NCBI GenBank assembly: GCA_017510725.1
Contig: JAFWMD010000025.1
Span: 1-47,197, forward strand
Origin: Mogibacterium sp.
Lineage (GTDB): Bacteria; Bacillota; Clostridia; Peptostreptococcales; Anaerovoracaceae
DNA length: 47,197 nucleotides
Direction of reading: 5' to 3'
Position numbers and translations under genes: made by a program. Positions 12,774 through 47,197 of this stretch are shown one piece after another; the stretch's first letter is position 1, and every line of letters starts with the position of its first letter. A model generated the notes under the pieces. The model was not told where the DNA came from. It saw only the letters and a list, made by a program, of their open reading frames with translations, and did no database searches.

Positions 12774-13967
12774 TTATGCCCGTTCAATTACAAAGTTATT
12801 GAATTCCTCAACCTCTTCAAATGTCTTGAACACTGCAGTGTAAAACTGATTTCCCATGGCTCCGGACAGTACATCAGGCATGCGCTCACACATCTTCATG
12901 CAGTCTCCGTATTTCTTCAGCACTTCTTCATGGCTGTGTTTGTACTGATGGATGTCCTTTCTGGATGCATATGCGCAGTACTGATCTCCTCCGATATCAG
13001 GCAGACGGCGCTCATTGTAAGCTACCATCTCAGCCCAGATCTCATATACGTCGGTGTTGTGAGCGTAATCCATCATATCAGGAGTGTATCCGCCTGCCGG
13101 TCTCATATTGGCTTCCAGACCTACGAAGTCCCCTACTTCGCCGAGATTCTTCCTGGCCTGTGTAAGACGGAAGAATTCAAAGTGTACGAATCTGCTTCTT
13201 ACTTTGAAAGCCTTGATAGTTGCACGTCCGTATTCACGCAGCTGTGCAGGTACCTCCGGAGTGGTGTAATATGTAAGCTCCAGTCCCTTGTTGACAAGGT
13301 CCGCTATCGATGGCGGGAACCAGTTTGAGCTCTCGAAGAGCACCTCTCCCTGTGCATTCACGATCGCATCGTATGAGTAAATATAACCATATACGAACTC
13401 TTCCATTACATATGGATGCTGCGGAAGGTTATTGTAGAACCACTCGAGATCTGCGTCGCTTTCAAGTTTCCACGTGTCTGCAGCACCTACTCCGATGTCA
13501 GGCTTAACGATGACAGGAAAACCACCGATCTCATCGAGGAACCCGCGCGCCGCTTCAATAGTTGTGACCTTGTGGTTGCGTGCAGTAGGAACACCAGCTT
13601 CCTTATAAAAAGGCTTCATCGCAGATTTGCTCTTCCACATTGCAAGCTCTTCAGGCTGCACGCCCGATCCGATATTAAAGTCTTTTCTCAGCCTGGCATC
13701 CTGCTCCAGCCAGTATTCGGAGTTGGATTCGAGCCAGTCGATCTTTCCGTACTTGAAATCCAGAAATGCAACGGCACGATACATGGAATCGTAGTTCTCC
13801 ATGTTATCCACTTTATAGTATTCTGTCAGAGCTGCTTTAAGAGGCTCCTCGAGCATCTCATATGGTGCGTCTCCAATACCGAGTACGTTGATACCGTTCC
13901 TCTTGAGCCTGTCGCAGAACTGCCAGTATGTGTGCGGAAAATTCGGTGATACAAAGATGAAATTCAT
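12774..13967 (-). CDS. ATP-grasp domain carboxylate-amine ligase-like protein
   Basis: Protein of 397 residues with an ATP-grasp fold. The N-terminal preATP-grasp domain starts MNFIFVSPNFPHTYWQF. The ATP-binding part shows GGFPVIVKPDIGVGA (adenine-contacting lysine), YVMEEFVYG, and the Mg-binding GLEANMRPAGGY around residues 285-296. ATP-grasp enzymes join a carboxylate, via an acyl-phosphate, to an amine, thiol or other nucleophile; this one resembles biotin-carboxylase/CPSase-like ligases of unknown substrate. Cotranscribed with the downstream esterase. The start has a GGGGAGAGGG-type ribosome binding site. Role in amino-acid, peptide or cofactor modification cannot be decided. Confidence 0.75.
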   Translation of the reverse strand: MNFIFVSPNFPHTYWQFCDRLKRNGINVLGIGDAPYEMLEEPLKAALTEYYKVDNMENYDSMYRAVAFLDFKYGKIDWLESNSEYWLEQDARLRKDFNIGSGVQPEELAMWKSKSAMKPFYKEAGVPTARNHKVTTIEAARGFLDEIGGFPVIVKPDIGVGAADTWKLESDADLEWFYNNLPQHPYVMEEFVYGYIYSYDAIVNAQGEVLFESSNWFPPSIADLVNKGLELTYYTTPEVPAQLREYGRATIKAFKVRSRFVHFEFFRLTQARKNLGEVGDFVGLEANMRPAGGYTPDMMDYAHNTDVYEIWAEMVAYNERRLPDIGGDQYCAYASRKDIHQYKHSHEEVLKKYGDCMKMCERMPDVLSGAMGNQFYTAVFKTFEEVEEFNNFVIERA

Positions 13968-14076
13968 TGTTCCCTCTCCCCTTTCTTTATGTTTTTATGA
14001 AACCTGTCTGTACATGACAAGGTCTCATCTGTCTGCAAACTCCCATATTGCGGATAATTATACTCGAATACCGCAT

Positions 14077-14111
14077 AAAAAAAAAGGGCGGGACTGTATG
14101 TCCTGCCCTTT
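14077..14111 (-). terminator. terminator of the adhesin gene
   Basis: Stem AAAGGGCAGGAC/GTCCCGCCCTTT with one mismatch and a five-base loop, followed on the minus strand by about nine T. It lies directly after the adhesin stop codon. Confidence 0.9.
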
Positions 14112-14127
14112 AGGCGTTTACAGCGGA

Positions 14128-17100
14128 TCACTCTTCTTCCTCTTCCTCGTCTTCCCTGCGACGTTTAAGTATAAAGAAGAGCAGTCCCATCATTACTCCT
14201 GCCAGTAGGATCAGTATGTAAGGGAGATAATTGTTTTTTACTCCGGTAGGAGCAACCAGATCTTCCCTGTTATTTATGATCGAAATGGTGTATTCAGTTT
14301 TCTGATCGCTGTCGTCTGTGTCAAGCACACCGGCATAACCGTCTGTATTGTCTATGTGTACTTCTCCCAATGGACTGATCGTGAACTTCACATCTCTTGA
14401 ATTAGCAGAAGAAGGAAGAATATATCCCTGAGGTGATTCGTTCTCTGTCAGATAGTATGTCCCGGCAGGGAGATTCTGATCCACACCATAAACTATACCG
14501 TCTTCCAGTGTTTCAACGTCTTCGAAGCCTTTGATAGCATAGTAATTTTTTCTTAAGCCGCCTGCGGTGCTTATCTGCTTATACAGTGCAAAATGTGCTC
14601 CGCTCAGAGGCCCGTTCGTATCCGCAGCGATTTTGACTGCCTTCAGCGTGAACGGCTTGTTTTTAACAGTAAGTACTTTGGAGTCCTCACTGTATTCATA
14701 TTCAAATGCATCCGTATCACTCGCTTTAATGGTGAATGCTGAGCCATTGACTTCGATACTTATTTCAGGACTGATCGCAGAATAACCCTTAGGCATTCTG
14801 GTTTCTTTCAGCTTGTAAGTGCCGTTTGACTCAAAGTATGCTGTTGTTACAAGCCCATCCTCCGAAGAAGTGTAATGGCCGGCAACCGTACCATCACTTT
14901 TTTCGAGTGTAAACATAGCACCTGCAAGTCCTCTTCCGGATAAATCCTCCACCCTTATCTCAAGTCCTCCGGTTCGGGTATTTGTAACAGTATCTGTACG
15001 GTATAAATCGCCCTCTTCTGAATCACCCTGTGCATATGAAGCAGCATATTCAAGGTTATCTACGGATGTTCCGTCCTTCTTTGTGCCGCTCAGTGTAATA
15101 TGAGAATCCCTGTCAATTATCCTTACTCCGCCGGAATCTGTCTTTTCGACCTCCCGGACGCGGTAATCACTGAATTTTGCACCGGTCTTCAGTGATGGAA
15201 TGAACCATGTAGTATAGTTGCTGCTGTTTATTTTCTTAATAGATCCTGAAACAAGATCTTCCTCACTGACACCGTCGTTGTCGCTGTCGATAAACAGAGC
15301 AAAATATGTATCACCATGTGATCTCATGAAATCTGCATCTGACCACCGCTTGTTGGCGCGTATTCCGTAGCCCTTCTGGTTGTGGACTTCGATTTTTGGA
15401 TGACTGTTGTCGCGGATGGTTCCTGAATTCTGCGAATCACTATCGCCTACTATATAGGATCCCTCCACACGCTTATAGCAATCATATTTTTTGCCGCCTT
15501 CTGTCCACGACCTTTTGCCGTATCCTACAGGGATATCATCGTCATCTTCGACTACCTTGAAGCTGGTACCGACAAGAAGCCCCCTGATCTCTATACTGTA
15601 GCCCGCAGGAAGCTTATCTGCAGCGCCGCTTGAGGTTGTTGTGAACGTGATCTTAGCCCGGTCGCTGTCAGACAGTGAATCAACCGAGCTCCAGCTGGTT
15701 GGTACAAATCCGCTGTCAGGGTCGAATCTGCAGTACTTGCCTTTCGGATCCTTTACATAGTATTCACCCATGCTGTAATAAGGCAGTTTACCCGGATCAT
15801 CCCCCAGATAAAGTCTCAGCTTGAATCCCGTATCGTCCTGCTTGCGCTGTATCTCTTTTCCTGACTTATCGAAAAGGCGTTTGGTGATTGTAAGCGTTCT
15901 GAGACTGGATTCGTTGACATGATTGCTGAATATTATCCGCGGTCTTCCTACTACCGTTCTGCTTTCAGAAGAGTAATCAGCATAAGTGATATCGCCTGTT
16001 TTGTGTGTTGATGTTTTTTCCGGATCTCCATCATTTATCAGCGTGCTGTCATACATGGAAGTATCGACTCCGCACTCAGTAACCCTGTACTTGACTGAGT
16101 TGCCAGGGAACCTGACAGATGCGGTCTGCCCCGGTTTCAGATAGTAGACATTATTATATCCTTTACCGCCGATCGTAGCATGATCTTTGTATTCCACGTT
16201 AGCGTTAGTGTTCTTATATCTCACAGGAATACCGTCCTCAGCGCCAAGCAGCTTTTCCCCGTCTCCTGTGTCATAATAAATCTGGAATGGGAATTTGACG
16301 CTCGCATAGTCCTGCTTATCAGTACCGGTGATTTCCTTGCTGAGCTGAACTTCTCCCGGTGTAACAGTCGACAAATTGAAGCGCATACGCAGGTTGGACG
16401 CTCCGGCTCCTCTTTCCATGAAGAACATACGCACATCATGGCTTGAGTAGTCCCTGAACACACGGCATTTTTTCCCGTCTACGGTCTTTTCCTGGAATAT
16501 ACCGTCTGCATACTCAGTAACTTTACTGGAATTGACATTCAAACCGTTTCTTTTGGCATAATTCTGTCTGAACAGATCATAAAGGGTCGTTTCTTCTTTG
16601 TTTACTACTACCCTTCCGGTGCTGTAGTTGACCGATCCGCCAAGAGCACTGTGTATTCCGCCAAGATCTATTACGAGTTCACCGTCAACATAAAGCCAGA
16701 AGTCATCGTCTCCGACGAATTCGAAAATGATATCATGGCCCCACGCATCATGTCCTCCCGGAGTCTGCATGAAGCTTCCTTCTACCTCCATGCCGAAGTA
16801 TGAATTCGGAGTTTCCTGCAGGCTGTAAAGCGTCTCATTTTTGCGAGGAAAATTATCAGACAGGTTATTACCATAAATATCAGTCAGGTTTCTGGCATTA
16901 TCCGAGTATGATGCTTTTGAACTGCTGAGGTTGTTATATGGCATAAACTGCCCATGCGTGTGCGTTTTTTTGTTTCCGTCAGGTATGGTGCCAAGCTCCT
17001 GATAAACACTGAACTCATTCCCGTTAAGGTGGGCAAAGTTCTCGGTACTGTCGAACTGATAGTATCCGCTTCCGTCATAAATACTCTGAACAAACAGGTG

Positions 17101-37165: not shown

Positions 37166-37290
37166 TTTACTTAATTTATTGTGATTACTATAATAGCAAC
37201 AGTCAACATCGCAAACCACAATTCATATATTATTCTCTTTGGAAAACGCCTTACCTCCCTCTTTGAAAAGGCGTTTTTCTTTTTTATTTT
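37166..37290 (+). ncRNA. candidate small RNA with anti-Shine-Dalgarno loop
   Basis: An intergenic stretch with a full transcription unit but no credible ORF. Promoter: TTTACT (37166-37171), 17-base spacer, TATAAT (37189-37194). The predicted RNA starts near 37201 and ends about 85 bases later at an intrinsic terminator: stem AAAACGCCTT/AAGGCGTTTT (37243-37277) then a long T-rich tract. The terminator loop contains ACCTCCCTCT, complementary to AGGGAGGT-type ribosome binding sites, like the UCCC loops of trans-acting sRNAs in Bacillota. Its end meets the 3' end of the convergent LysR gene; on the minus strand the same hairpin has a poorer T run. Confidence 0.55.
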
Positions 37291-38153
37291 TCAAAATATT
37301 TCAGAGTGTAATCCAGAAATTTTCTGGACGCTCCGGTCATGTGTTCCCTTGAAGGAAAAGCCACGCCGAAAGTGATTTTCTGAGGCGGATCAAGAGGCAT
37401 TTTAACAAGATGTTCATTCCAGAATTGCGCGGACAGCTCGTTTACAAAACTTATGCCAAGACCCATTCTTACCATGGCAAGCGTAGCCGGAGTATCGTAA
37501 GTTGTGTATTTTATCTCAGGATGGACATCATTTCTTTCAAGAATCTCGAGTATCTCCATCTCCTTGCCCCAGGATCCCATAATAAAGTCATCATTCTCAC
37601 ACTCTGCCAGAGGAAACATTTTTGCGTCTGCAAGTCTGTGATCTTCCGGAACAGCGGCTATGATATTTGTTTTGGTAAGAGATATCCACTCATAAGGCAT
37701 CGGTTCGGAGTAAGCCAGAAAAGCCAGATCAGCCTCATTCTGTTCAAAATGATGGAAAATGTCTGACTTTATGGATTCCATGAGGCTTATCTGTATACCC
37801 GGATAGTCATTTTTAAAACGTCTCACTATTTCAGGAAGCCATGTTGTAGCTATACTCGGGTATGATGCTATAGTAAGCTTTCCTTTTGTTATTCCCTTAA
37901 GCTCGGCTGCAAAAGTATATAGCTCCTCTTCATGTGTAAGATATGATCTTACGAGAGGAAGCATCTCTCCGCCTTCTGCCGTGATCTTCATACCCTTCTG
38001 CGAACGCATGAAGAGTGTGATTCCAAGCTCCTTCTCCAATGCAGTAATCAGCTGGCTTATAGCTGATGGAGTGTATCCAAGTGAATCCGCAGCAGCTTTT
38101 ACACTGCCCTTGTCAGCAGTTTCTACAAATGCTCTGAGTCTTGCAGTTTCCAT
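37284..38153 (-). CDS. LysR family transcriptional regulator
   Basis: LysR-type regulator of 289 residues. N-terminal winged helix-turn-helix METARLRAFVETADKGSVKAAADSLGYTPSAISQLI..., then a periplasmic-binding-protein-like effector domain from about residue 90. It follows the TRAP operon terminator and has its own promoter. It could regulate the TRAP genes or itself. Effector unknown; a carboxylate from the neighbouring pathway is a reasonable guess. Confidence 0.92.
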   Translation of the reverse strand: METARLRAFVETADKGSVKAAADSLGYTPSAISQLITALEKELGITLFMRSQKGMKITAEGGEMLPLVRSYLTHEEELYTFAAELKGITKGKLTIASYPSIATTWLPEIVRRFKNDYPGIQISLMESIKSDIFHHFEQNEADLAFLAYSEPMPYEWISLTKTNIIAAVPEDHRLADAKMFPLAECENDDFIMGSWGKEMEILEILERNDVHPEIKYTTYDTPATLAMVRMGLGISFVNELSAQFWNEHLVKMPLDPPQKITFGVAFPSREHMTGASRKFLDYTLKYFEK

Positions 38154-38246: not shown

Positions 38247-38285
38247 AAAAAGAGAGAGCCGCCGGGGCCTGATGCTCCGGCGGCC
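38244..38285 (-). terminator. terminator of the shikimate/TRAP operon
   Basis: Perfect stem GCCGCCGG/CCGGCGGC followed by TCTCTC and seven T on the minus strand, 17 bases after the dctP-like gene. Confidence 0.95.
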
Positions 38286-38301: not shown

Positions 38302-39336
38302 TTATTTCTGGTATTTATCGATGCATTCGATAAATGTGTTGTAGACTTCGGAATCTACTTTCTCCTTAATGCTTTCGCGTACTCCTGCACTTTCCTCAAC
38401 GATTTCTTTATAAGTCTTCTCATCGATCTTGAGTATCTGTGTACCGCTTTCTTCAATGGTCCTGACTCTGTCAGCGATTCTGTCATCAGATGCCTGGCGT
38501 GCATATTCCGTTGCCGTGGCTGCTGCCTCCCTGAGAATACGCTGATTCTCTTCCGGCATGCCCTTAAAGAACTCATCGTTCATGATCAGCGTTATCAGAT
38601 GAGGCAGATGATTGGTCTCTACCACATAATCCTGCTGCTCATAAAGCCTGTTTGATACGATGACCTCATAAGGGTTCTCCTGTGCATCGATAGTGTGCTG
38701 CTGAAGACCGATGTATACCTCAGCGAAACTCATAGGTGTCGGATTGGCTCCTATGGATTTCCAGAACGCCAGATGGAACGGGTTCTCCATGGTACGAATC
38801 TTCTGTCCTTTGAAGTCACCTATTCCCTTAACAGGCTTGTTGGTACTCATTATACGGAATCCCTGATCAGCGATTCCAAGGAGCTGATATCCGCCCTTTT
38901 CATACACGCTGCTTATGAGGCTGCTGAATTCAGCATCGTCAAGCACTTCTCTGCACTCATCAAGGTTCTCGAATGCACACGGCACATCGAATATCGCAAG
39001 ATCGGGCATGAAGGTAACCTGAGGAGCAGTGTTCTGCACTACGAACGGGATATCTCCATCCTTGCAGGACTCAAGCAGTTCACGGTCTCCACCAAGCGTT
39101 GAGTTGGCATAAACCTGAATCTTTATGCTTCCGCCAGAAAGTCTGTCGACTTCTTCTGCAAACTTTTCGGCATATATCTGAGTTACTGTATCTTCCGGAC
39201 TCGCCGTAGCAAGCGGATAAGCATATCTCTGTTCTCCGTCATTTTTGCCACATGCAGTCATCATCATTCCTATAAGCAGAATACTGATAAGAATTGCTGC
39301 AAGGCGGATGTGTTTATGATTGTTTATTCTTTTCAT
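38302..39336 (-). CDS. TRAP transporter substrate-binding lipoprotein (DctP family)
   Basis: Extracytoplasmic solute receptor of a TRAP transporter, 344 residues. Lipoprotein signal: KRINNHKHIRLAA, hydrophobic stretch, lipobox MTAC with Cys lipidation. The DctP fold has YANSTLGGDRELLE, FRIMSTNKPVKG and GQKIRTMENP, whose arginine is the usual clamp for a substrate carboxylate. The frame extends to 39378, but ATG 39336 follows TAGGAGGTG. It is last in the order Q-M-P. The context suggests quinate, shikimate or a similar hydroxylated ring acid as ligand. Confidence 0.93.
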   Translation of the reverse strand: MKRINNHKHIRLAAILISILLIGMMMTACGKNDGEQRYAYPLATASPEDTVTQIYAEKFAEEVDRLSGGSIKIQVYANSTLGGDRELLESCKDGDIPFVVQNTAPQVTFMPDLAIFDVPCAFENLDECREVLDDAEFSSLISSVYEKGGYQLLGIADQGFRIMSTNKPVKGIGDFKGQKIRTMENPFHLAFWKSIGANPTPMSFAEVYIGLQQHTIDAQENPYEVIVSNRLYEQQDYVVETNHLPHLITLIMNDEFFKGMPEENQRILREAAATATEYARQASDDRIADRVRTIEESGTQILKIDEKTYKEIVEESAGVRESIKEKVDSEVYNTFIECIDKYQK

Positions 39337-39346
39337 GACACACCTC

Positions 39347-40636
39347 CTAAAGCAGCAGCAGCGAGAACGCCGGTACAAATGTGAACAGAAGCAGTGCTAC
39401 CAGGAAGAGTCCTATCATAGGCATCGCCTTTCTGGCGATTTCCATGACCGGAACGTCCGTAAGTGCGCTGGCTACGAACAGGTTGACTCCGATAGGCGGA
39501 GTTACGAATCCTATAGCCAGATTTACTACCATGATCACACCGAACTGGATAGGATCCATTCCGATACCCTGCGCAATCGGCAGCAGGATTGGTGTAAGGA
39601 TCAGTATCGCAGGTGTCGTATCCATGACCATGCCCACAATAAGCAGGAACACGTTTATGACAAGCAGTATGATTACCTTACTCGAGAAGTTTCCGAGTAT
39701 GAACGAGCTTACCGTCTGAGGCACCTGCATGAGAGTCAGCACTCTTGAGAAAGCCGTGGATGCTGCCAGAATAAACAGTATCGGAGTAAAGGTCTTGATG
39801 GCTTCAACGAGGATGCCCCAAAGATCCTTTATCTTTATCTCCTTGTAGATAAACAGGCTGACTATCAGTGCATAATATACCGATATTACAGCTGCTTCAG
39901 TCGGAGATGTAATGCCCGAATAAATGCATCCAAGAACGATCACCGGGCTTAATATTGCCCAGAAGCTCTCCTTGAACACCTTGCCGAAGCCCTTTTCATG
40001 GAGCTTTCCTATCTCTGCTTCTATCCTGACTTTATCCTCTCCGTTCTTCTTGCAGTAGAACACTGAGTACCCCATCAGGAGAGCTGCTATAACAAGCCCC
40101 GGAATGATGCCTGCAAGGAACAAGTCACTTACAGACGCGCCGGATGCCATTCCGTACATGATGAACGGGATGCTCGGCGGGATAATTACACCGAGTCCGC
40201 CGGCGACCGCTACGACAGATGTCGAGAATGTCTTGTCGTAGCCCAGCCCGATCAGGATCGGGATAGTCATGCTGCCTACGGCAGCAACGGTCGCCGGAGC
40301 TGATCCGGAGATCGCGCCGTAGAACAGGCATGTTACTATGACTGCACAAGGCATTCCGGCAGTGAATCTGCCGAAGAAGTAAGCAAATATGTCAAATATC
40401 TTTCTTGATATGCCTCCCTTTGCCATGATGATGCCTGACAGAACAAACATCGGCACCGCAAGCAGCGGGAAGCTGTCGAGTCCGCCGAACATCGCTCTGA
40501 TGAGATACTTTGCTCCCACTGTGAACGACGGATCGAATATATGAGGCAAAACAGCTGTTATTCCAAGCGTTATGCCTACCGGTATTGCTATTACAAGGAA
40601 TACCACGAACAGTATGAACAATAATCCTACCGGCAT
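39347..40636 (-). CDS. TRAP transporter large permease (DctM family)
   Basis: Membrane permease of the TRAP system, 429 residues, about 12 hydrophobic helices. Family features: the N-terminal LLFILFVVFLVIAIPVGITLG, GGLDSFPLLAVPMFVLSG, and the C-terminal AIGFVTPPIGVNLFVA. It couples Na+ gradient to uptake of the solute held by the DctP-like receptor. AAAGGAG precedes the start; two bases from the dctQ stop and ten before dctP. Confidence 0.95.
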   Translation of the reverse strand: MPVGLLFILFVVFLVIAIPVGITLGITAVLPHIFDPSFTVGAKYLIRAMFGGLDSFPLLAVPMFVLSGIIMAKGGISRKIFDIFAYFFGRFTAGMPCAVIVTCLFYGAISGSAPATVAAVGSMTIPILIGLGYDKTFSTSVVAVAGGLGVIIPPSIPFIMYGMASGASVSDLFLAGIIPGLVIAALLMGYSVFYCKKNGEDKVRIEAEIGKLHEKGFGKVFKESFWAILSPVIVLGCIYSGITSPTEAAVISVYYALIVSLFIYKEIKIKDLWGILVEAIKTFTPILFILAASTAFSRVLTLMQVPQTVSSFILGNFSSKVIILLVINVFLLIVGMVMDTTPAILILTPILLPIAQGIGMDPIQFGVIMVVNLAIGFVTPPIGVNLFVASALTDVPVMEIARKAMPMIGLFLVALLLFTFVPAFSLLLL

Positions 40637-40638
40637 GA

Positions 40639-41214
40639 CTACTCCTTTCCGGCCTCTGCCGCTGCTGCGGCCTGGCCTGCTTCGATGAATGAATCAGGAG
40701 TATTGCGTTCAGGATGAGCAGGGTCATAGACCTCCATTCCGAGTGAGACCTTGAGCTCGATTATCCATCTCTGGATTATCCTGAATGCTACCAGTATGAA
40801 CGATACGAAAGGCGCTGCCTGTATATAATACATCGGTATTCCAAGAGCAGGACTCACCTGTCCGCTCTCAACCGCTGACATCATATATGAAAAAGCGAAC
40901 GGTATCATGTAAAAGAAAAACGCCAGCTCTATCGTATGATTGACCACTTTGATGATCGCCTTCGTTCGCCTCGAGAACTTTGCCACGAACTGTTCTATCT
41001 TGATCGAGATGCACCTCTTACTGCAGTAGCTGACACTCAGGAAGCCTGCCCATATGAACAGATATCTCGTGAGCTCCTCAGTCCACGACAGCGAAGCTTT
41101 AAGTGCAAATCTTGAAAACACCTGTACTCCCATGATCACTGCCATTGCAAGAAGCAGCAGAGTAAGCAGGAATTCTTCCAGATTATGATCAAGCCATTTT
41201 ATTGCTTTTGTCAT
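40639..41214 (-). CDS. TRAP transporter small permease (DctQ family)
   Basis: Small membrane subunit, 191 residues, four hydrophobic helices (about 14-34, 46-66, 86-108, 128-150) and the family segment LSWTEELTRYLFIWAGFLSVSY. The C-terminus is Ala/Glu-rich. First gene of the TRAP trio, following aroD after an 80-base gap that holds a strong hairpin. Confidence 0.93.
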   Translation of the reverse strand: MTKAIKWLDHNLEEFLLTLLLLAMAVIMGVQVFSRFALKASLSWTEELTRYLFIWAGFLSVSYCSKRCISIKIEQFVAKFSRRTKAIIKVVNHTIELAFFFYMIPFAFSYMMSAVESGQVSPALGIPMYYIQAAPFVSFILVAFRIIQRWIIELKVSLGMEVYDPAHPERNTPDSFIEAGQAAAAAEAGKE

Positions 41215-41236
41215 GGCTCTTTTCCTTTCTATATAG

Positions 41237-41281
41237 CATGCCCCGCCCCGGAGGGACGTATGTCGTCAGAAGCGGGGCATG
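41237..41281 (-). promoter_or_regulatory. hairpin between aroD and the TRAP genes
   Basis: Perfect 10-bp GC-rich stem CATGCCCCGC/GCGGGGCATG around a 25-base loop. No T tract follows, so it is not a normal terminator; it may protect the upstream mRNA from decay or tune expression of the TRAP genes. Confidence 0.55.
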
Positions 41282-41294
41282 TATAAACAATTAG

Positions 41295-42056
41295 CTAGAG
41301 CGCTCCGTGCAGGAGAGTGAGTACCTGCTTGAGATCCTCTACTCCCATCTGACCAGGTGCAGATGCCTTTGCAGCTGCACCGAATGTCAGTGCTGAACCG
41401 AACACTTCACCGGCAAGACGGCTGATAACGCCGGTTCCTGCCATTGACATAGTGATGATCGGACGATCAGCATACTCGTTTGCCATTTCTTCTGTTGCAG
41501 CAAGCAGCGTAAGAACATCTTTCTTATTCTGCGGCATAACAGCGATCTTAGGGATGTCTGCACCAAGATCCTGCATCTTGCGGAGACGGCCTACGATGTC
41601 GTCCTTGTCAGGAGTCTTGAAGAAATCGTGGTTGGATGCTACTACCTTTACGCCTGCAGCATGAGCTCCGTCGATGATCTTCTTAACGATCTCGTCGCCT
41701 GTGAAGACTTCTACGTCTACCATGTCAACATATCCTGTCTGAGCAGCCTTGATGTTGATGTCAGCATACACTTCATCCTCAATGGCCTTCTCTCCGCCTT
41801 CCTTCGAAGTACGGAATGTCATCAGAATAGGCATGTCTCCGAGAACCTCGCGAAGGCCCTTCATAACATCCTCGAGAGCAGCGAAGTCGAATACGTTCTC
41901 GAACCAGTCAATCCTCCACTCCACTACGTCTGCAGGGAGCTTTGTTATGGCTCTGGCTTCATCGAGGATAGCTTCCTTTGTTACTCCTACGATAGGCACG
42001 CAGATCTTTGGCATACCTTCACCGATAACAACGTTTCTGACCTTAACAGTGTTCAT
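41295..42056 (-). CDS. aroD: 3-dehydroquinate dehydratase, type I
   Basis: Type I dehydroquinase, 253 residues, interconverting 3-dehydroquinate and 3-dehydroshikimate through a lysine Schiff base. The catalytic residues are at the canonical positions: His143 in VVASNHDF and Lys170 in DIPKIAVMP; also VVEWRIDWF and MTFRT. Its neighbours (a YdiB-like dehydrogenase, MFS and TRAP transporters, LysR) argue for quinate/shikimate catabolism rather than only aromatic synthesis. GAAAGGAAGG precedes the ATG. Confidence 0.97.
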   Translation of the reverse strand: MNTVKVRNVVIGEGMPKICVPIVGVTKEAILDEARAITKLPADVVEWRIDWFENVFDFAALEDVMKGLREVLGDMPILMTFRTSKEGGEKAIEDEVYADINIKAAQTGYVDMVDVEVFTGDEIVKKIIDGAHAAGVKVVASNHDFFKTPDKDDIVGRLRKMQDLGADIPKIAVMPQNKKDVLTLLAATEEMANEYADRPIITMSMAGTGVISRLAGEVFGSALTFGAAAKASAPGQMGVEDLKQVLTLLHGAL

Positions 42057-42090
42057 AATTTCCTTCCTTTCTGTTAAGCATGCTGGAGTA

Positions 42091-43302
42091 CTATTTTTCT
42101 GCAGCCTCGAGCATCTTTTTGTAATTCATGTTTACGAATACTCCGAGCAGTGTTCCTACTGCTGTCAGCACGATGTTCATTATCATTACTCCGGACGGAG
42201 TCATCGATGCAGCAGCTGTAAGAAGTGTGTAGTTGCACAGAGATGAAGCAATCATTACGAGGGCTGTAACTGTTCCCTTGATCTTAGGGAAGAGCATGTT
42301 GCATACGGACGTTGCGATCTGCAGAAGTCCGCCTGCTCCGAACCAGCCGAGTACGAATGCGCCGATCTTGAGAATTCCCTGCGAAGGAGCCATAAGTACT
42401 GCAACCATCATGAGTGCGCAGATTGCAGGATAGATCATTACGAATCTTACGTCCTTGATCTTGCTTGTCAGCAGAGCTGTAATTACGAGACCGATCATAG
42501 TTCCGATAGCGTAGAACGACTGCATAGCCTGCGGCTCAGCCCAGCCAACGACATCCTTTGCGAAGTTCTGTGCGCAGTTGAGCCAGAGCTGGAATGTACC
42601 TGTGCATGTGAATCCGATGAGGATCATAGCGATCGAACCAGCAGAGAAGTTAGCGTGCTTGATGCTCTGGAGAAGTCCTTCCTTTTTCTCTTCAGCCTTC
42701 TTGTCTGTATCAGGCAGAGGGAAGAAGAGGATCAGTGCCATGAGCACGAGGTAGCAGATACCTACTGCGTAGAACAGAGTGTTGTAACTTACCATTCCGG
42801 TAGCTGTCTGGCCTACTGTGATTCCAAGGAAGAATGGCAGCAGGAACTGTGAACCGGAGATAGCGAACTTGATACCCATTGTTGCAACGCCAGGAGCCTT
42901 GTTGATGATCTCAGCAACAGCTGGATAGATTCCTGTGTCGAGGAATGAGTTTGCGATTCCGCCTATGATAGCGCAGATGTAAGCGATCCTGTATCCTGCG
43001 CCGCCGCCTGCGTTGAACGCCATAGCGAGTCCGATCAGATAAACTGCATACGAGAATCCGCCGATAGCTGTCGATACTCTGCGGCCGAGCTTGTCCGAAA
43101 GAGGACCTGCGAACGGAAGTGCGATAAGTCTTCCGAGTCCGAGAGCAGCTGCGATAGCTGTGATAGCCATTGCTTCAACATTCCAGCTTGCAGCAAGTGC
43201 ATCTTTTATTACTGCCTGTCCGAGAACGGAGCAGCCAATACCGTGAAGGAAATAGTTCAGATAGAGAACTATTACACTTGGTAAATATTTTTTGTTAGTC
43301 AT
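42091..43302 (-). CDS. MFS transporter, YdiN/YdiM-like
   Basis: Major facilitator of 403 residues with about 12 membrane helices. The N-terminus IVLYLNYFLHGIGCSVLGQ, the loop GLGRLIALPFAGPLSDKLGRRV and ANSFLDTGIYPAV resemble E. coli YdiN/YdiM, carriers encoded beside ydiB and aroD. It lies between the YdiB-like gene and aroD in one transcript. I infer transport of quinate, shikimate or a reduced product; import and export cannot be separated. Confidence 0.88.
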   Translation of the reverse strand: MTNKKYLPSVIVLYLNYFLHGIGCSVLGQAVIKDALAASWNVEAMAITAIAAALGLGRLIALPFAGPLSDKLGRRVSTAIGGFSYAVYLIGLAMAFNAGGGAGYRIAYICAIIGGIANSFLDTGIYPAVAEIINKAPGVATMGIKFAISGSQFLLPFFLGITVGQTATGMVSYNTLFYAVGICYLVLMALILFFPLPDTDKKAEEKKEGLLQSIKHANFSAGSIAMILIGFTCTGTFQLWLNCAQNFAKDVVGWAEPQAMQSFYAIGTMIGLVITALLTSKIKDVRFVMIYPAICALMMVAVLMAPSQGILKIGAFVLGWFGAGGLLQIATSVCNMLFPKIKGTVTALVMIASSLCNYTLLTAAASMTPSGVMIMNIVLTAVGTLLGVFVNMNYKKMLEAAEK

Positions 43303-43349
43303 GATTTTTTCCTCTCATTTTCCATTAAAGAATACTTTTCGTTTTTAAA

Positions 43350-44228
43350 TTAGTCGTCATAGCTTATGCCGAGAACTTCCTTCATGTGCTCGATCGGCAT
43401 TGGCTTGCCTGTCCAGAGCTCAAATCCTGCTGCTCCCTGGAAGAGCATCATTCCGAGTCCGTTCATTGTCTTGCATCCGACTTCCTTAGCCATCTTTCTC
43501 ATCTTTGTCAGAAGGCATCCGTAAGGAACGTCTACTACGATGAGCTCAGGTCTGAAGAAGCTCTTGTCAGGAACTACAGAAACGTCTTCGAGCGGCTTCA
43601 TGCCTGCGCCTGTAGCGTTTACGAAGAGGTAGCTGTCTGCCATCTCTCTGCGAAGAGCTTCAGTATCTGCGAGGTCAAACATCTGAGCCTTGCAGTTTGT
43701 TCTCTCGTTGATCTTCTTTACTGTTTCTTCTCCAACTACATAGAACTTGTCCTTGATGTTGAAAATTGAGATCTCTGCTACTCCGTCGAGTGCAGCCTGG
43801 ATCTCGATAGCTGTAGCAGCACCGCCTGCTCCTACGATCGTCATCTTCTTACCGATAGGATCGATGTTGTTATCCTTAAGAGCTGCCATGAATCCGATAC
43901 CGTCTGTGATGTATCCCTTGAGGTAGCCATTGTCATTGACGATAGTGTTTACTGCTCCGCAGAGTTCAGCTGCAGGGTCGAGTTCGTCAAGATACTGACC
44001 TACCAGAGTCTTATTAGGCATGGAAACGTTTGAACCTCTCATCTTGAGAGTGCGGATAGCCTTTACAGCATCTTCGATCTCATCGGCGCCTACTTCGAAT
44101 GCGAGGTATGCATAGTCAGCACCTACTTCTGCGAAAGCTTCGTTCTGCATAGCAGGTGAGCTGGAATGACGAATTGGATAAGCCATGAGTCCGATAAGTT
44201 CGGTATGTCCTGTGATTCTTTCTGCCAT
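43350..44228 (-). CDS. ydiB: quinate/shikimate dehydrogenase, YdiB-like
   Basis: Shikimate dehydrogenase superfamily enzyme, 292 residues, much closer to YdiB than to biosynthetic AroE: ELIGLMAYPIRHSSSP, KMRGSNVSMPNKTL (catalytic Lys73), LCGAVNTIVNDNGYLKGY, then Asp109 in ITDGIGF. The nucleotide loop is VGAGGAATA, and the AroE NADP-binding NRT motif is replaced by NIKD (157-160), suggesting NAD use. Expected reactions: quinate to 3-dehydroquinate and shikimate to 3-dehydroshikimate. AAAAGGAG precedes the ATG. First gene of the operon, divergent from the LysR gene. Confidence 0.93.
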   Translation of the reverse strand: MAERITGHTELIGLMAYPIRHSSSPAMQNEAFAEVGADYAYLAFEVGADEIEDAVKAIRTLKMRGSNVSMPNKTLVGQYLDELDPAAELCGAVNTIVNDNGYLKGYITDGIGFMAALKDNNIDPIGKKMTIVGAGGAATAIEIQAALDGVAEISIFNIKDKFYVVGEETVKKINERTNCKAQMFDLADTEALRREMADSYLFVNATGAGMKPLEDVSVVPDKSFFRPELIVVDVPYGCLLTKMRKMAKEVGCKTMNGLGMMLFQGAAGFELWTGKPMPIEHMKEVLGISYDD

Positions 44229-44411
44229 TGTTTTTCTCCTTTTATTAATATGAGTTTTTTATGATCGTTATTCAGGCACTTTTGTATGCCTCTCCCGGTA
44301 ATGTCTCCGATTCACCACAAGCCAGAAGACAACTTTGTTAAAACAATAACTATTTCTTGTTTACATTTTAACAATGCTTTTTGATGCAGTCCAATGCCAT
44401 ATATCGCAAAA

Positions 44412-44434
44412 AATGATAGCTTGACGCTATCATT
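44412..44434. promoter_or_regulatory. LysR operator palindrome between aroE/ydiB and lysR
   Basis: Perfect inverted repeat AATGATAGC-TTGAC-GCTATCATT containing a centred T-N11-A. The TTGACG at its centre can serve as -35 for the plus-strand LysR gene with TATGAT at 44446-44451 (19-base spacing). This is the expected autoregulatory and activator site of a divergent LysR system. Confidence 0.75.
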
Positions 44435-44519
44435 CGAACTTAGTCTATGATATATTTTTTTAAATATTTCAATAATTAATATACCAGTTGTGAGAACTTT
44501 GATAACAAGGAGACCGAGC

Positions 44520-45428
44520 ATGACTTTGAATCAGCTTAAATACTTTCAGGCAGTTGCCAGGCTGCAGAACTTCAGGGCAGCAGCTGAAGAGTTGTATATA
44601 TCGCAGCCTTCCCTTTCCAGATCAATAGATTCCCTTGAAGATGAACTGGGCGTAGTTCTGTTTGAACGTGCAGGCAGAGGCATTTCATTGACCGGAAGCG
44701 GAAGACTTTTTCTTGAGTACACCAACCGTATTCTTGAGGAGTGCGATATCGCTGTATATAAAATGAAGGAAATATCTACTTCCGGAGGCCGTATAGATAT
44801 AGGCTACGTTTTCCCTCTGGCTAACTATTACATTCCTCACAAGGTGCGTTCTTTCCTAAGTATTCCGGGCAACGAACATGTGACATTCGGTTTTACGCAG
44901 AACCGGACGTCTTCAATAATAAGAGAAATAAAAAACGGCAAGCTTGATGTAGGATTCTGCGCGTACTCTGAAAATGAAGAAGAGCTTGAATTCGTTCCTA
45001 TCATTAAGCAGGAAATGGTGATCATAACTTCCAATGAACATCCGCTTGCCTCAAAAGATAAGCTTTCCATAAGCGAACTGGGACGTTATCCGGTGATTGG
45101 ATATGACCGCGTGTCAGCTCTGGGCGGGTATACTAAACGGCTTTATCGCAGCCTGGGCATAAAGCCGGATATCCTGTGTGAATGCTCTGATGAAAACTCC
45201 ATCCAGGCATTAGTCCGCGAGCAGTTCGGTATAGCCCTGGTCGCAAAAGTAGATATTCTTAATGATAAGTATCTGAAGATACACAGCGTGTCAGATGCTG
45301 ATCTTACTCACTATGTAAATGTCGTATGGCAGAAGAACCATTACCTGATGCCTGCTACTAAACGCTTTATTGATTTCATGATCAGCGAATCCGAGCTTGA
45401 TCAGGCATCGCTGAAAGCAATTACATAG
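44520..45428 (+). CDS. LysR family regulator (QuiR-like)
   Basis: LysR-type regulator, 302 residues, divergent from the quinate/shikimate operon. DNA-binding part MTLNQLKYFQAVARLQNFRAAAEELYISQPSLSRSI..., effector domain from about residue 90. ATG 44520 follows AAGGAG; an upstream in-frame ATG at 44490 lacks this. By position and pathway it corresponds to QuiR of Listeria, a shikimate-responsive LysR activator of qui operons; orthology is inferred from context, not tested. Probable targets are the ydiB-like operon and the flavin reductase. Confidence 0.92.
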   Translation: MTLNQLKYFQAVARLQNFRAAAEELYISQPSLSRSIDSLEDELGVVLFERAGRGISLTGSGRLFLEYTNRILEECDIAVYKMKEISTSGGRIDIGYVFPLANYYIPHKVRSFLSIPGNEHVTFGFTQNRTSSIIREIKNGKLDVGFCAYSENEEELEFVPIIKQEMVIITSNEHPLASKDKLSISELGRYPVIGYDRVSALGGYTKRLYRSLGIKPDILCECSDENSIQALVREQFGIALVAKVDILNDKYLKIHSVSDADLTHYVNVVWQKNHYLMPATKRFIDFMISESELDQASLKAIT

Positions 45429-45474
45429 GCAGATGATATTGATTTCATCTATCTGATACCTTCAGGCTATCAAA

Positions 45475-45516
45475 AACGGGCAATAAAGATATTTTTCTTT
45501 TGCCCGTTATTTTTTT
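45475..45516 (+). terminator. terminator after lysR
   Basis: Stem AACGGGCAA/TTGCCCGTT followed by ATTTTTTT. The reductase gene starts 50 bases later, so its promoter must overlap this hairpin (TATAAG at 45521-45526 is a candidate -10) or it depends on readthrough. Confidence 0.88.
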
Positions 45517-45565
45517 ATCATATAAGTACCACAAGGCAGCAGATAACCACCGGAGGGAGTACAAA

Positions 45566-47197
45566 ATGAAGAAGGATTATCCAAACATTTTTGAACCTAT
45601 CACAGTAAGAAAGACTGTTTTCAAGAACAGAGTAGTCATGACCCCGATGGGCACAAACTACGCTGATCCGGACGGCGGCATCAATGATGATCACATCAAC
45701 TACTACAAACTCAGAGCAAAAGGCGGTACAGGCCTCATCATCGTAGAGAACGTCTGCGTGGACTTCCCTACAGGTTCCAACGGAACAAGCCAGCTCAGAC
45801 TCGACCATGACATGTTTATGCCGAAGCTCTACAAGCTGACAGAAACAGTCCATAACGAGGGCGGACTTATCGCAGTACAGATCAACCATGCAGGAGCATC
45901 TGCTTCATCTGCACGTACAGGAGTTCCGACTGTATCATCATCTACAGTACCGTCAAAGCTCGGCGGCGAAGCACCTCGTCCGCTTGAGAAAGATGAAATC
46001 GAAGCTATAGTAAAGAAATACGGCGAAGCTGCAAAGCGTGCAGTTCAGGCTGGATTCGATGCAATCGAGGTCCACTGCGGACACTCTTACCTCATCAGCC
46101 AGTTCCTCTCGCCTATCTATAACAAGAGAACTGATGAGTTCGGCGGAAGTGCTGAGAACAGAGCACGTCTTGCCAGAATGGTCATCGACGAAGTCAGAAA
46201 GCAGGTTGGACCTTTCATTCCTATCCTCGCAAGAATCAGTGCAGATGAGTTCCTCGAGGGCGGAAATAACCTCGACGACTGCCTTGAGTACCTGCAGTAC
46301 TTCGGAGACGAAGTAGACGTATATAACGTATCTGCTGCTCTTAACCCATCCCTGCAGTATCAGATCGACAGCAACTGCTATCCTGACGGCTGGAGAGCAT
46401 ATCTCGCAAAGGCTGTAAAAGAAAGATTCGGCAAGCCGGTAGTCACAATGGGCAACATCAGAAGTCCTAAGGTAGCTAACGACATCCTCGAAAGAGGCGA
46501 CGCTGATTTCATCGGTATCGGCAGAGGCCTGATCGCTGACCCTGACTGGGTAAACAAAGCTGAATTCGGCGAAGAGTGCGACATCAGAAAGTGCATCAGC
46601 TGCAACATCGGATGCGCAGGCAACCGTATCCAGAACAACAGACCTATCAGATGCACTGTAAACCCTGCAGTCATTGAAGGCGAAGAATACAAGAAGCTCA
46701 AAGTCAACAAGCCATGCAACGTTGTAGTTATCGGCGGCGGTACAGCCGGTATGGAAGCAGCATGCACAGCTGCTGAGGTCGGATGCACAGCATTCCTGAT
46801 CGAAAAGGCTGATCATCTTGGCGGACTTGCTTATGAGATCTCGAAGTTCCCTGACAAGAGCAGACTGAGAGACTTCCCTGACTACCTCGAGAGAAGGATC
46901 AAGAAGCTTCACAACCTGCACGTGTTCCTGAACACCGAGGCGACTCCTGAGTTCATCAGAACACTTAACCCGGATATCATCGTGAACTCCACAGGTTCAC
47001 TGCCGCTGATCCTCCCTATCCCTGGGCTCAAGGAAAACGTAGGCAAGGGCAAGGTCCAGACAGTTCTCGGCGTTATCGACAATCTGGACAACTATCCTGA
47101 GGACTGCACAGGCAAGAAGGTCGTTGTTATCGGCGCCGGCGCCGTAGGACTCGATGTAGTGGAATTCTTCGCGCCTAGAGGAGCGGACACCACGGTA
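45566..47197 (+). CDS. NADH:flavin oxidoreductase / 2-enoate reductase family (runs off window)
   Basis: The frame starts at ATG 45566 behind GGAGGGAG and is open to the window end: 544 residues of a family that is usually about 640-680 long. It has the old-yellow-enzyme FMN barrel (about 5-340; VVMTPMGTN, EVHCGHSYLISQFLSP, GIGRGLIADPD), a 4Fe-4S cluster motif Cys343-x2-Cys346-x3-Cys350-x12-Cys363, an FAD-binding VVIGGGTAGMEAA near 389 and a second nucleotide site VVIGAGAVGLDVVEFF near the end. This layout matches 2,4-dienoyl-CoA reductase, BaiCD/BaiH and 2-enoate reductases, which reduce C=C bonds next to a carbonyl or carboxylate with NAD(P)H. Next to quinate/shikimate genes, 3-dehydroshikimate (an enone) is a plausible substrate; that is inference. 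Confidence 0.93.
   Translation, partial: MKKDYPNIFEPITVRKTVFKNRVVMTPMGTNYADPDGGINDDHINYYKLRAKGGTGLIIVENVCVDFPTGSNGTSQLRLDHDMFMPKLYKLTETVHNEGGLIAVQINHAGASASSARTGVPTVSSSTVPSKLGGEAPRPLEKDEIEAIVKKYGEAAKRAVQAGFDAIEVHCGHSYLISQFLSPIYNKRTDEFGGSAENRARLARMVIDEVRKQVGPFIPILARISADEFLEGGNNLDDCLEYLQYFGDEVDVYNVSAALNPSLQYQIDSNCYPDGWRAYLAKAVKERFGKPVVTMGNIRSPKVANDILERGDADFIGIGRGLIADPDWVNKAEFGEECDIRKCISCNIGCAGNRIQNNRPIRCTVNPAVIEGEEYKKLKVNKPCNVVVIGGGTAGMEAACTAAEVGCTAFLIEKADHLGGLAYEISKFPDKSRLRDFPDYLERRIKKLHNLHVFLNTEATPEFIRTLNPDIIVNSTGSLPLILPIPGLKENVGKGKVQTVLGVIDNLDNYPEDCTGKKVVVIGAGAVGLDVVEFFAPRGADTTV

Follow-up and report, generated by a model that had tools for sequence, protein, structure and literature searches.

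Among the systems closest to the locus treated here, the qui operon of Listeria is induced by shikimate via the regulator QuiR and forms protocatechuate, and lactobacilli of the Ligilactobacillus salivarius kind reduce quinate and shikimate. Here I examine a related gene set on contig JAFWMD010000025.1 of Mogibacterium sp. (assembly GCA_017510725.1), which combines a quinate/shikimate dehydrogenase (SDH), the type I 3-dehydroquinate dehydratase AroD, transporter genes and a LysR-type regulator with an Fe-S flavoenzyme of the old yellow enzyme (OYE)/2,4-dienoyl-CoA reductase type, below called the reductase. The window, that is the whole stretch of DNA analysed (47,197 nucleotides), is the entire contig, and its 3' end falls inside the reductase gene at 47197; the source metagenome-assembled genome (MAG), designated G000, measures 2.4 Mb and is 84.5% complete with 5.7% contamination. 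This kind of operon is already known and widespread, in Listeria and Klebsiella, and the form found here, which carries genes of a tripartite ATP-independent periplasmic (TRAP) importer and is free of dehydratase and chorismate genes, is a variant of it. In the window genome the reductase is very likely linked to quinate/shikimate metabolism, and reduction of 3-dehydroshikimate, the best explanation for its presence, is likely. The features on which this rests are, in window coordinates:

38302..39336, minus strand: DctP, TRAP substrate-binding lipoprotein (PF03480, E 1e-72)
39347..40636, minus strand: DctM, TRAP large permease (PF06808/TIGR00786, over cut-off)
40639..41214, minus strand: DctQ, TRAP small permease (PF04290)
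41295..42056, minus strand: AroD, type I 3-dehydroquinate dehydratase (PF01487, E 3e-79; TIGR01093, over cut-off)
42091..43302, minus strand: major facilitator superfamily (MFS) transporter, remote YdiM/YdiN relative (PF07690)
43350..44228, minus strand: SDH, quinate/shikimate dehydrogenase of the YdiB/Listeria type (NF001313, over cut-off)
44414..44432, no strand: palindromic LysR-type putative operator TGATA-N9-TATCA, exact match, upstream of SDH
44520..45428, plus strand: LysR-type regulator a (Pfam; AAGGAG ahead of the ATG), divergent from the SDH operon
45454..45472, no strand: second putative operator TGATA-N9-TATCA, upstream of the reductase
45478..45505, plus strand: hairpin with a T run behind it, in the gap from LysR a to the reductase, directly after the operator
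45566..47197, plus strand: reductase (PF00724 and Pyr_redox_2), cut by the contig end

The initial annotation, made from the sequence alone, had named SDH, AroD, a YdiN-like MFS transporter, a TRAP trio, a divergent LysR and the reductase, and all of these are present and placed as described; the MFS transporter, however, resembles YdiN only remotely (28% identity to E. coli YdiM, 26% to YdiN). AroD and SDH are the sole matches in the window genome to PF01487 and PF08501, respectively, and the best solved relative of SDH is 3tnl, followed by YdiB-type chains. The SDH, dehydroquinase and LysR of a qui-type catabolic operon are present, and the dehydratase leading to protocatechuate is missing from the window genome type.

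The Listeria qui-type operon of NZ_LR134402.1 shares with the window a divergent LysR and a reductase, SDH and AroD that are 57%, 63% and 59% identical. However, it has no TRAP genes, its order is reductase-SDH-AroD on one strand, and Listeria has a dehydratase-type protein, Lmo2234 (PDB 2g0w), which the window genome type is without. Listeria had been invoked beforehand as a precedent, of which the gene content (LysR, SDH, AroD, flavin oxidoreductase) was seen in this record and the protocatechuate outcome is background knowledge. One Listeria locus (L173) has two hydrolase genes just past the operon (12869-15414), one of the CocE/NonD and one of the SGNH/GDSL type, whose products might be esterases acting on conjugates of ring acids. 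In Klebsiella pneumoniae, an operon beside leuABCD (reductase-SDH-MFS-AroD-LysR) has the same enzymes and an MFS transporter in one run, with identities of 52% for the reductase, 61% for SDH, 50% for AroD and only 27% for MFS; in contrast to the window, it belongs to a different phylum, has no TRAP genes, and its reductase is annotated only as an FAD-dependent oxidoreductase. The ydiN-ydiB-aroD genes of E. coli, the other precedent invoked, do form a consecutive MFS-SDH-AroD run (SDH 49%, AroD 56%), but neither reductase nor TRAP is found within the 13 kb examined.

Megaplasmid pMP1046A of L. salivarius carries an operon (L179, 4551-9644) of LysR, a dehydratase-like protein, a short-chain dehydrogenase/reductase (SDR), a flavoprotein, SDH and AroD. 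LysR, SDH (59%) and AroD are as in the window and a flavoprotein of C=C-reductase type occupies the same slot, although it belongs to the fumarate/urocanate reductase family (FMN_bind/FAD_binding_2), unlike the OYE of the window, and the dehydratase-like PF01261 gene inside the operon, whose product is 68% identical to its Blautia counterpart, and the SDR have no equivalent there. Since a second, unrelated family of C=C-reducing flavoproteins fills this slot in bacteria known to reduce quinate and shikimate, the analogy argues that C=C reduction may be the function selected for in this position.

The bai operon (BaiCD/BaiH) has the same enzyme class and the same logic, and PMC11574389 gives the order of bile-acid 7-dehydroxylation as oxidise, eliminate, reduce, and the motif of the Fe-S flavoenzyme class as CX2CX3CX11-13C between OYE barrel and FAD/NAD(P) domain. 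The reductase starts at ATG 45566, and a complete copy in a related locus (L049; 664 aa, 99% identical over the shared part) has the barrel and the FAD/NAD(P) domain intact and belongs to this class by domains and motif. A tyrosine that aligns with FadH and the four cysteines (CX2CX3CX12C; Cys 365, 368, 372 and 385) are invariant in 59 of 59 relatives aligned over 600 aa, an alignment that holds one gene twice (L040 and L051). Unlike the bai enzyme, however, the reductase is no BaiCD, as the complete copy scores 456 bits and the truncated window copy 407 against an NF041087 cut-off of 825; bilirubin reductase (BilR) was likewise rejected (complete copy 358 bits, NF045599 cut-off 750). Residues N282, Q288 and D290 are also invariant (59/59), where a second OYE type treated below has His, Met and Ala (9/9) and FadH has His, Thr and a gap, and one may speculate from the alignment that they mark the substrate site. 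Besides the reductase, G000 has five more PF00724 matches (contigs C12, C28, C55 and C72), four of which were aligned and show 26-34% identity to it.

Linkage of the reductase and the shared operator sequence

A search of genome contigs with SDH matched 119 relatives, the best 80 of which were kept as loci. Genes were counted in these by tblastn, with many loci cut by contig ends. SDH is present in 80, AroD in 75, MFS in 63 (>30% identity), the reductase in 59, DctM in 55, DctP in 53, a chorismate mutase-shikimate kinase in 28 (>45%), an SDH2-type gene in 15 (>40%), a second type of OYE (about 641 aa) in 8, and an Lmo2234-like dehydratase in 7. The TRAP importer had been taken for an unusual addition, but with DctM in 55 of the 80 loci it is common in this clade; TRAP genes are not in the E. 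coli, Listeria, Klebsiella, Blautia and Cetobacterium loci examined. Where at least 9 kb are available on each side of SDH, the reductase is found in 38 of 44 loci (in L089 as pieces only). Among the carriers of the reductase are Blautia, Coprococcus comes, Pseudobutyrivibrio, Petralouisia, Absicoccus, Cetobacterium and Clostridium thailandense. A nominal association between reductase and transporter presence (Fisher p 0.016) carries no weight, because it takes no account of kinship and because, of the 38 loci with both, five (L070, L072, L073, L076, L089) have their sole transporter match in a neighbouring second cluster.

Seeded with the reductase instead of SDH, a search through 391 genomes of the window's class (probably Clostridia) gave six positives at E<=1e-140, the window genome among them, and all six are included in the 11 genomes positive for SDH at E<=1e-80 (p 9.7e-11, with kinship between genomes ignored); in each genome the scan scored only the three best first-look candidates for the reductase, against a maximum of six for SDH, so that some carriers may be missed. 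The reductase lies within 1.4 kb of SDH in G199, G330, G423, G460 and the window genome, and in G461 it lies 3.8 kb from aroD, with the SDH match elsewhere, in a cluster of dehydratase and second OYE. A type II dehydroquinase (PF01220) stands between SDH and reductase in G460 (L163, 6757-10563) and is a non-homologous replacement of AroD that catalyses the same reaction, while G330 (L161, 6497-16193) has two tandem reductase-SDH-MFS units without AroD. As these variant gene orders keep the same reactions, they argue that the reductase is part of a quinate/shikimate module.

At a threshold of 1e-60 the reductase has matches in 29 records of a plasmid collection, and among the best 15 of these, which were compared, the first eight show 52-58% identity and the next seven listed at most 32.5%. 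Six of the eight were examined in detail: two from Listeria (H4, H5) have reductase-SDH-AroD, two from Klebsiella (H7, H8) have reductase-SDH-MFS-AroD, with the SDH of H8 in two pieces, and two from Paenibacillus (H1, H2) have the reductase alone. In H6 (L. innocua), judged by coordinates, an SDH match adjoins the reductase.

The two arms of the locus also share an operator sequence. The window contains exactly two TGATA-N9-TATCA sites against 0.08 expected, and none of 100 shuffles had two; one stands before the SDH operon and the other before the reductase. The 80 loci, 1.37 Mb in all, contain the exact sequence 39 times, in at least 36 cases before SDH or reductase, and an exact site occurs within 300 bases upstream of SDH in 20 loci and of the reductase in 16. 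I call Mogibacterium-type those loci whose SDH is 94-100% identical to that of the window; most of them stem from MAGs of the ruminant gut labelled Mogibacterium sp. or uncultured Clostridiales. In the 19 of this type (L049-L066, L071), which are close relatives and thus non-independent, both sites are exact in 11 and present in 18 when one mismatch is allowed; outside it an exact site precedes SDH in 7 of 60 loci and the reductase in 1 of 40. One LysR regulator would control both the SDH operon and the reductase via this common putative operator. The neighbourhood comparison that the initial annotation had called for thereby places the reductase with the quinate/shikimate genes by linkage, co-occurrence and common operator.

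In the hairpin at 45478-45505 the stem pairing is kept in relatives via paired base changes, as judged by eye from an alignment, and the region 45429-45565 has a fold z-score of -3.1. The hairpin is not among the sites of the terminator scan; it is possibly a terminator or attenuator, and transcription of the reductase may start from a separate promoter or come from attenuated read-through.

Chorismate genes and dehydratases

Chorismate synthase and shikimate kinase were searched for in the window genome and neither was found, whereas one SDH and one AroD are present. Over 25 genomes, chorismate synthase is present in 19 and missing in six, all of them Mogibacterium-type (G000, G135, G148-G151); as G149 (L051) and G135 share a 274,294-base contig these represent five distinct genomes, and the genome of L125 is outside the count. 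Shikimate kinase is missing in G000, G135, G148, G150 and G151 and present in the five others tried, so that five of the six distinct genomes with a Mogibacterium-type locus have neither gene. This makes assimilation unlikely in the window type, and in the window genome the route looks catabolic. The same-genus genome G082 has both chorismate genes and only weak SDH matches. 3-Dehydroquinate synthase proved a weak marker of the pathway, as the search for it also missed 3 of 14 control genomes and two genomes in which shikimate kinase is present. In many relatives outside this type assimilation is likely. The chorismate mutase-shikimate kinase fusion hints at an assimilatory branch in other families, a branch missing from most Mogibacterium-type genomes examined.

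By Pfam, no dehydroshikimate dehydratase is among the locus genes of the window, and a query with the Lmo2234-type dehydratase found nothing in the six Mogibacterium-type genomes and matches in 4 of 23 genomes overall (G153, G154, G160, G161). The QuiC and AsbF dehydratases are members of PF01261, of which the 97%-complete sibling G135 has no protein and therefore no QuiC-type dehydratase. Together G000, G148, G150 and G151 have six PF01261 proteins, two of them belonging to the window MAG and of other kinds, and their best BLASTP match to the dehydratase has an E of 0.58. A hidden dehydratase was thus sought by protein query and by Pfam family in the Mogibacterium-type genomes examined and none was found, in agreement with the earlier remark that none is visible nearby.

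However, genomes that do have a dehydratase can carry the reductase as well, since a protocatechuate-type dehydratase cluster adjoins the reductase locus in Blautia, Clostridium thailandense and another relative. A second cluster near the SDH locus, with an Lmo2234-like PF01261 protein, the OYE of about 641 aa, a second SDH and mostly an MFS transporter, is seen in Blautia, Clostridium magnum, C. thailandense and others (L070, 12047-19057; L104, 1660-7119; L112, 8648-14575; L162, 13736-18715). Its OYE is only some 32-36% like the window reductase, and all seven loci with the PF01261 gene carry it.

Candidate substrates of the reductase

In the pathway that I propose, the TRAP and MFS transporters would import quinate or shikimate and perhaps export the product. 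SDH would oxidise the C3 hydroxyl, AroD would remove the C1 hydroxyl of 3-dehydroquinate to give 3-dehydroshikimate, the reductase would reduce the C1=C2 bond of the latter with NAD(P)H, and SDH or another dehydrogenase might finally convert the C3 ketone to a hydroxyl, with a trihydroxycyclohexane carboxylate as product. From quinate to 3-dehydroshikimate one NAD(P)H would be gained and the ring and ketone reductions would use two, so that net one would be consumed, as would also be the case starting from shikimate; the route would dispose of two electrons per quinate or shikimate and act as an electron sink. The pathway intermediates with a C=C bond are 3-dehydroshikimate and shikimate, and the reductase class acts on activated C=C bonds. 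Among the literature matches listed, in which subscription journals are thinly covered, no paper was found that ties a flavin ene-reductase to 3-dehydroshikimate, a weak negative; in PMC8706239 the term 'dihydroshikimate' is used for the dehydratase substrate, which adds nothing. The wider notion, that gut anaerobes carry out a bile-acid-like reductive dehydroxylation of dietary quinate via a dedicated 3-dehydroshikimate reductase, and purely dissimilatorily in most of the Mogibacterium group, is a serious but tentative possibility.

Several observations weigh against this pathway. The window has no clearly dedicated dehydrogenase for the last step, and an SDH2-type gene occurs in only 15 of the 80 loci; 6 of the 44 well-flanked SDH loci are without the reductase; and outside the Mogibacterium type the operator stands before both arms in 2 of 40 loci, with one mismatch allowed. 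The Paenibacillus plasmids H1 and H2 (L175, L176) have a reductase of 56-58% identity and neither SDH nor AroD within 8 kb, so that the enzyme does not everywhere belong to the module. A dehydratase is also contained in 5 of the 59 reductase loci (L070, L072, L073, L076, L108), a chorismate mutase-shikimate kinase gene is found in the DNA of 28 of the 80 loci (e.g. L072, 19711-20499), and the sixth Mogibacterium-type genome, G152 (L065, SDH 94%), has the locus together with chorismate synthase and shikimate kinase. As a separate observation, the Paenibacillus reductase, alone in 18 kb, stands beside a phosphotransferase-family gene and possibly has another substrate.

Alternatively, the reductase could act on hydroxycinnamates such as caffeate, freed together with quinate from chlorogenic acid, with SDH and AroD taking the quinate half. 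Enzymes of this class can reduce enoates, the same-slot flavoprotein of L. salivarius is related to vinylphenol and urocanate reductases, and the two hydrolases stand just beyond the Listeria operon. However, no esterase is among the window locus genes and none was recognised among recurrent neighbours in a partial look without a dedicated search (three clusters and seven single genes by Pfam, clusters 8-39 by visual inspection of their first 60 residues), and the bare reductase-SDH-MFS units of G330 fit a substrate made by SDH, so that I consider this unlikely.

Somewhat less probable still is that shikimate, which is itself an enoate, and not the ketone serves as substrate of the reductase. 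The same gene linkage and the G330 units without AroD would suit it, but SDH and AroD would then be needed for quinate only, and, from what is known of the chemistry of such enzymes, the enone with its double activation is easier to reduce. I give a comparably low probability to assimilation, in which quinate and shikimate would feed chorismate and aromatic amino acids via shikimate, with the reductase in a side function. It is favoured by the 28 loci with chorismate mutase-shikimate kinase, five with DAHP synthase, the case of G152, and a rumen operational taxonomic unit predicted in PMC10054779 to convert quinate to chorismate. However, the missing chorismate synthase and shikimate kinase in five of six genomes, together with G082, which has both and only weak SDH matches, lead me to reject it as the main role in the window's genome type, although G152 keeps the pathway, and it leaves the reductase unexplained. 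That the locus serves an ordinary protocatechuate route and the assembly has merely failed to capture the dehydratase is highly improbable: an Lmo2234-like PF01261 gene stands with another OYE in 7 of 80 loci and the window MAG is incomplete with two PF01261 proteins, but the dehydratase query, the lack of PF01261 in G135 and the unlike proteins of G000, G148, G150 and G151 all point the other way.

The preferred reading, reduction of 3-dehydroshikimate, would assign one reductase subfamily a defined substrate that can be put to the test, and it extends to gut genera in culture (Blautia, Coprococcus comes, Pseudobutyrivibrio). Forage, coffee and fruit commonly contain quinate and shikimate, which are converted to cyclohexane carboxylates and then, in the host, to hippurate. 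If the reading holds, a non-aromatising route would explain the use of these acids as electron acceptors by anaerobes, could be the missing first stage of this conversion, and would supply marker genes for the contribution of microbes to hippurate formation.

Flanking features

For DctP the ATG before a lipoprotein-like signal was chosen as start, the longest open reading frame starting at 39378; its closest solved chains are SiaP-type (sialic-acid) TRAP receptors, which gave no ligand prediction. Two further features lie beyond it:

38258..38284, no strand: G+C-rich inverted repeat, possible terminator, immediately beyond dctP (11-pair stem with 10 G-C pairs, loop of 5)
37284..38153, minus strand: LysR-type regulator b (Pfam HTH_1 and LysR_substrate), adjoining dctP

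The repeat is called a possible terminator by position and G+C content only, as the scan gave 4 sites against a mean of 6.2 in shuffles. LysR b, which is absent from the initial annotation, is more than 60% identical in 8 of the 80 related loci and is kept in part of the Mogibacterium-type loci.

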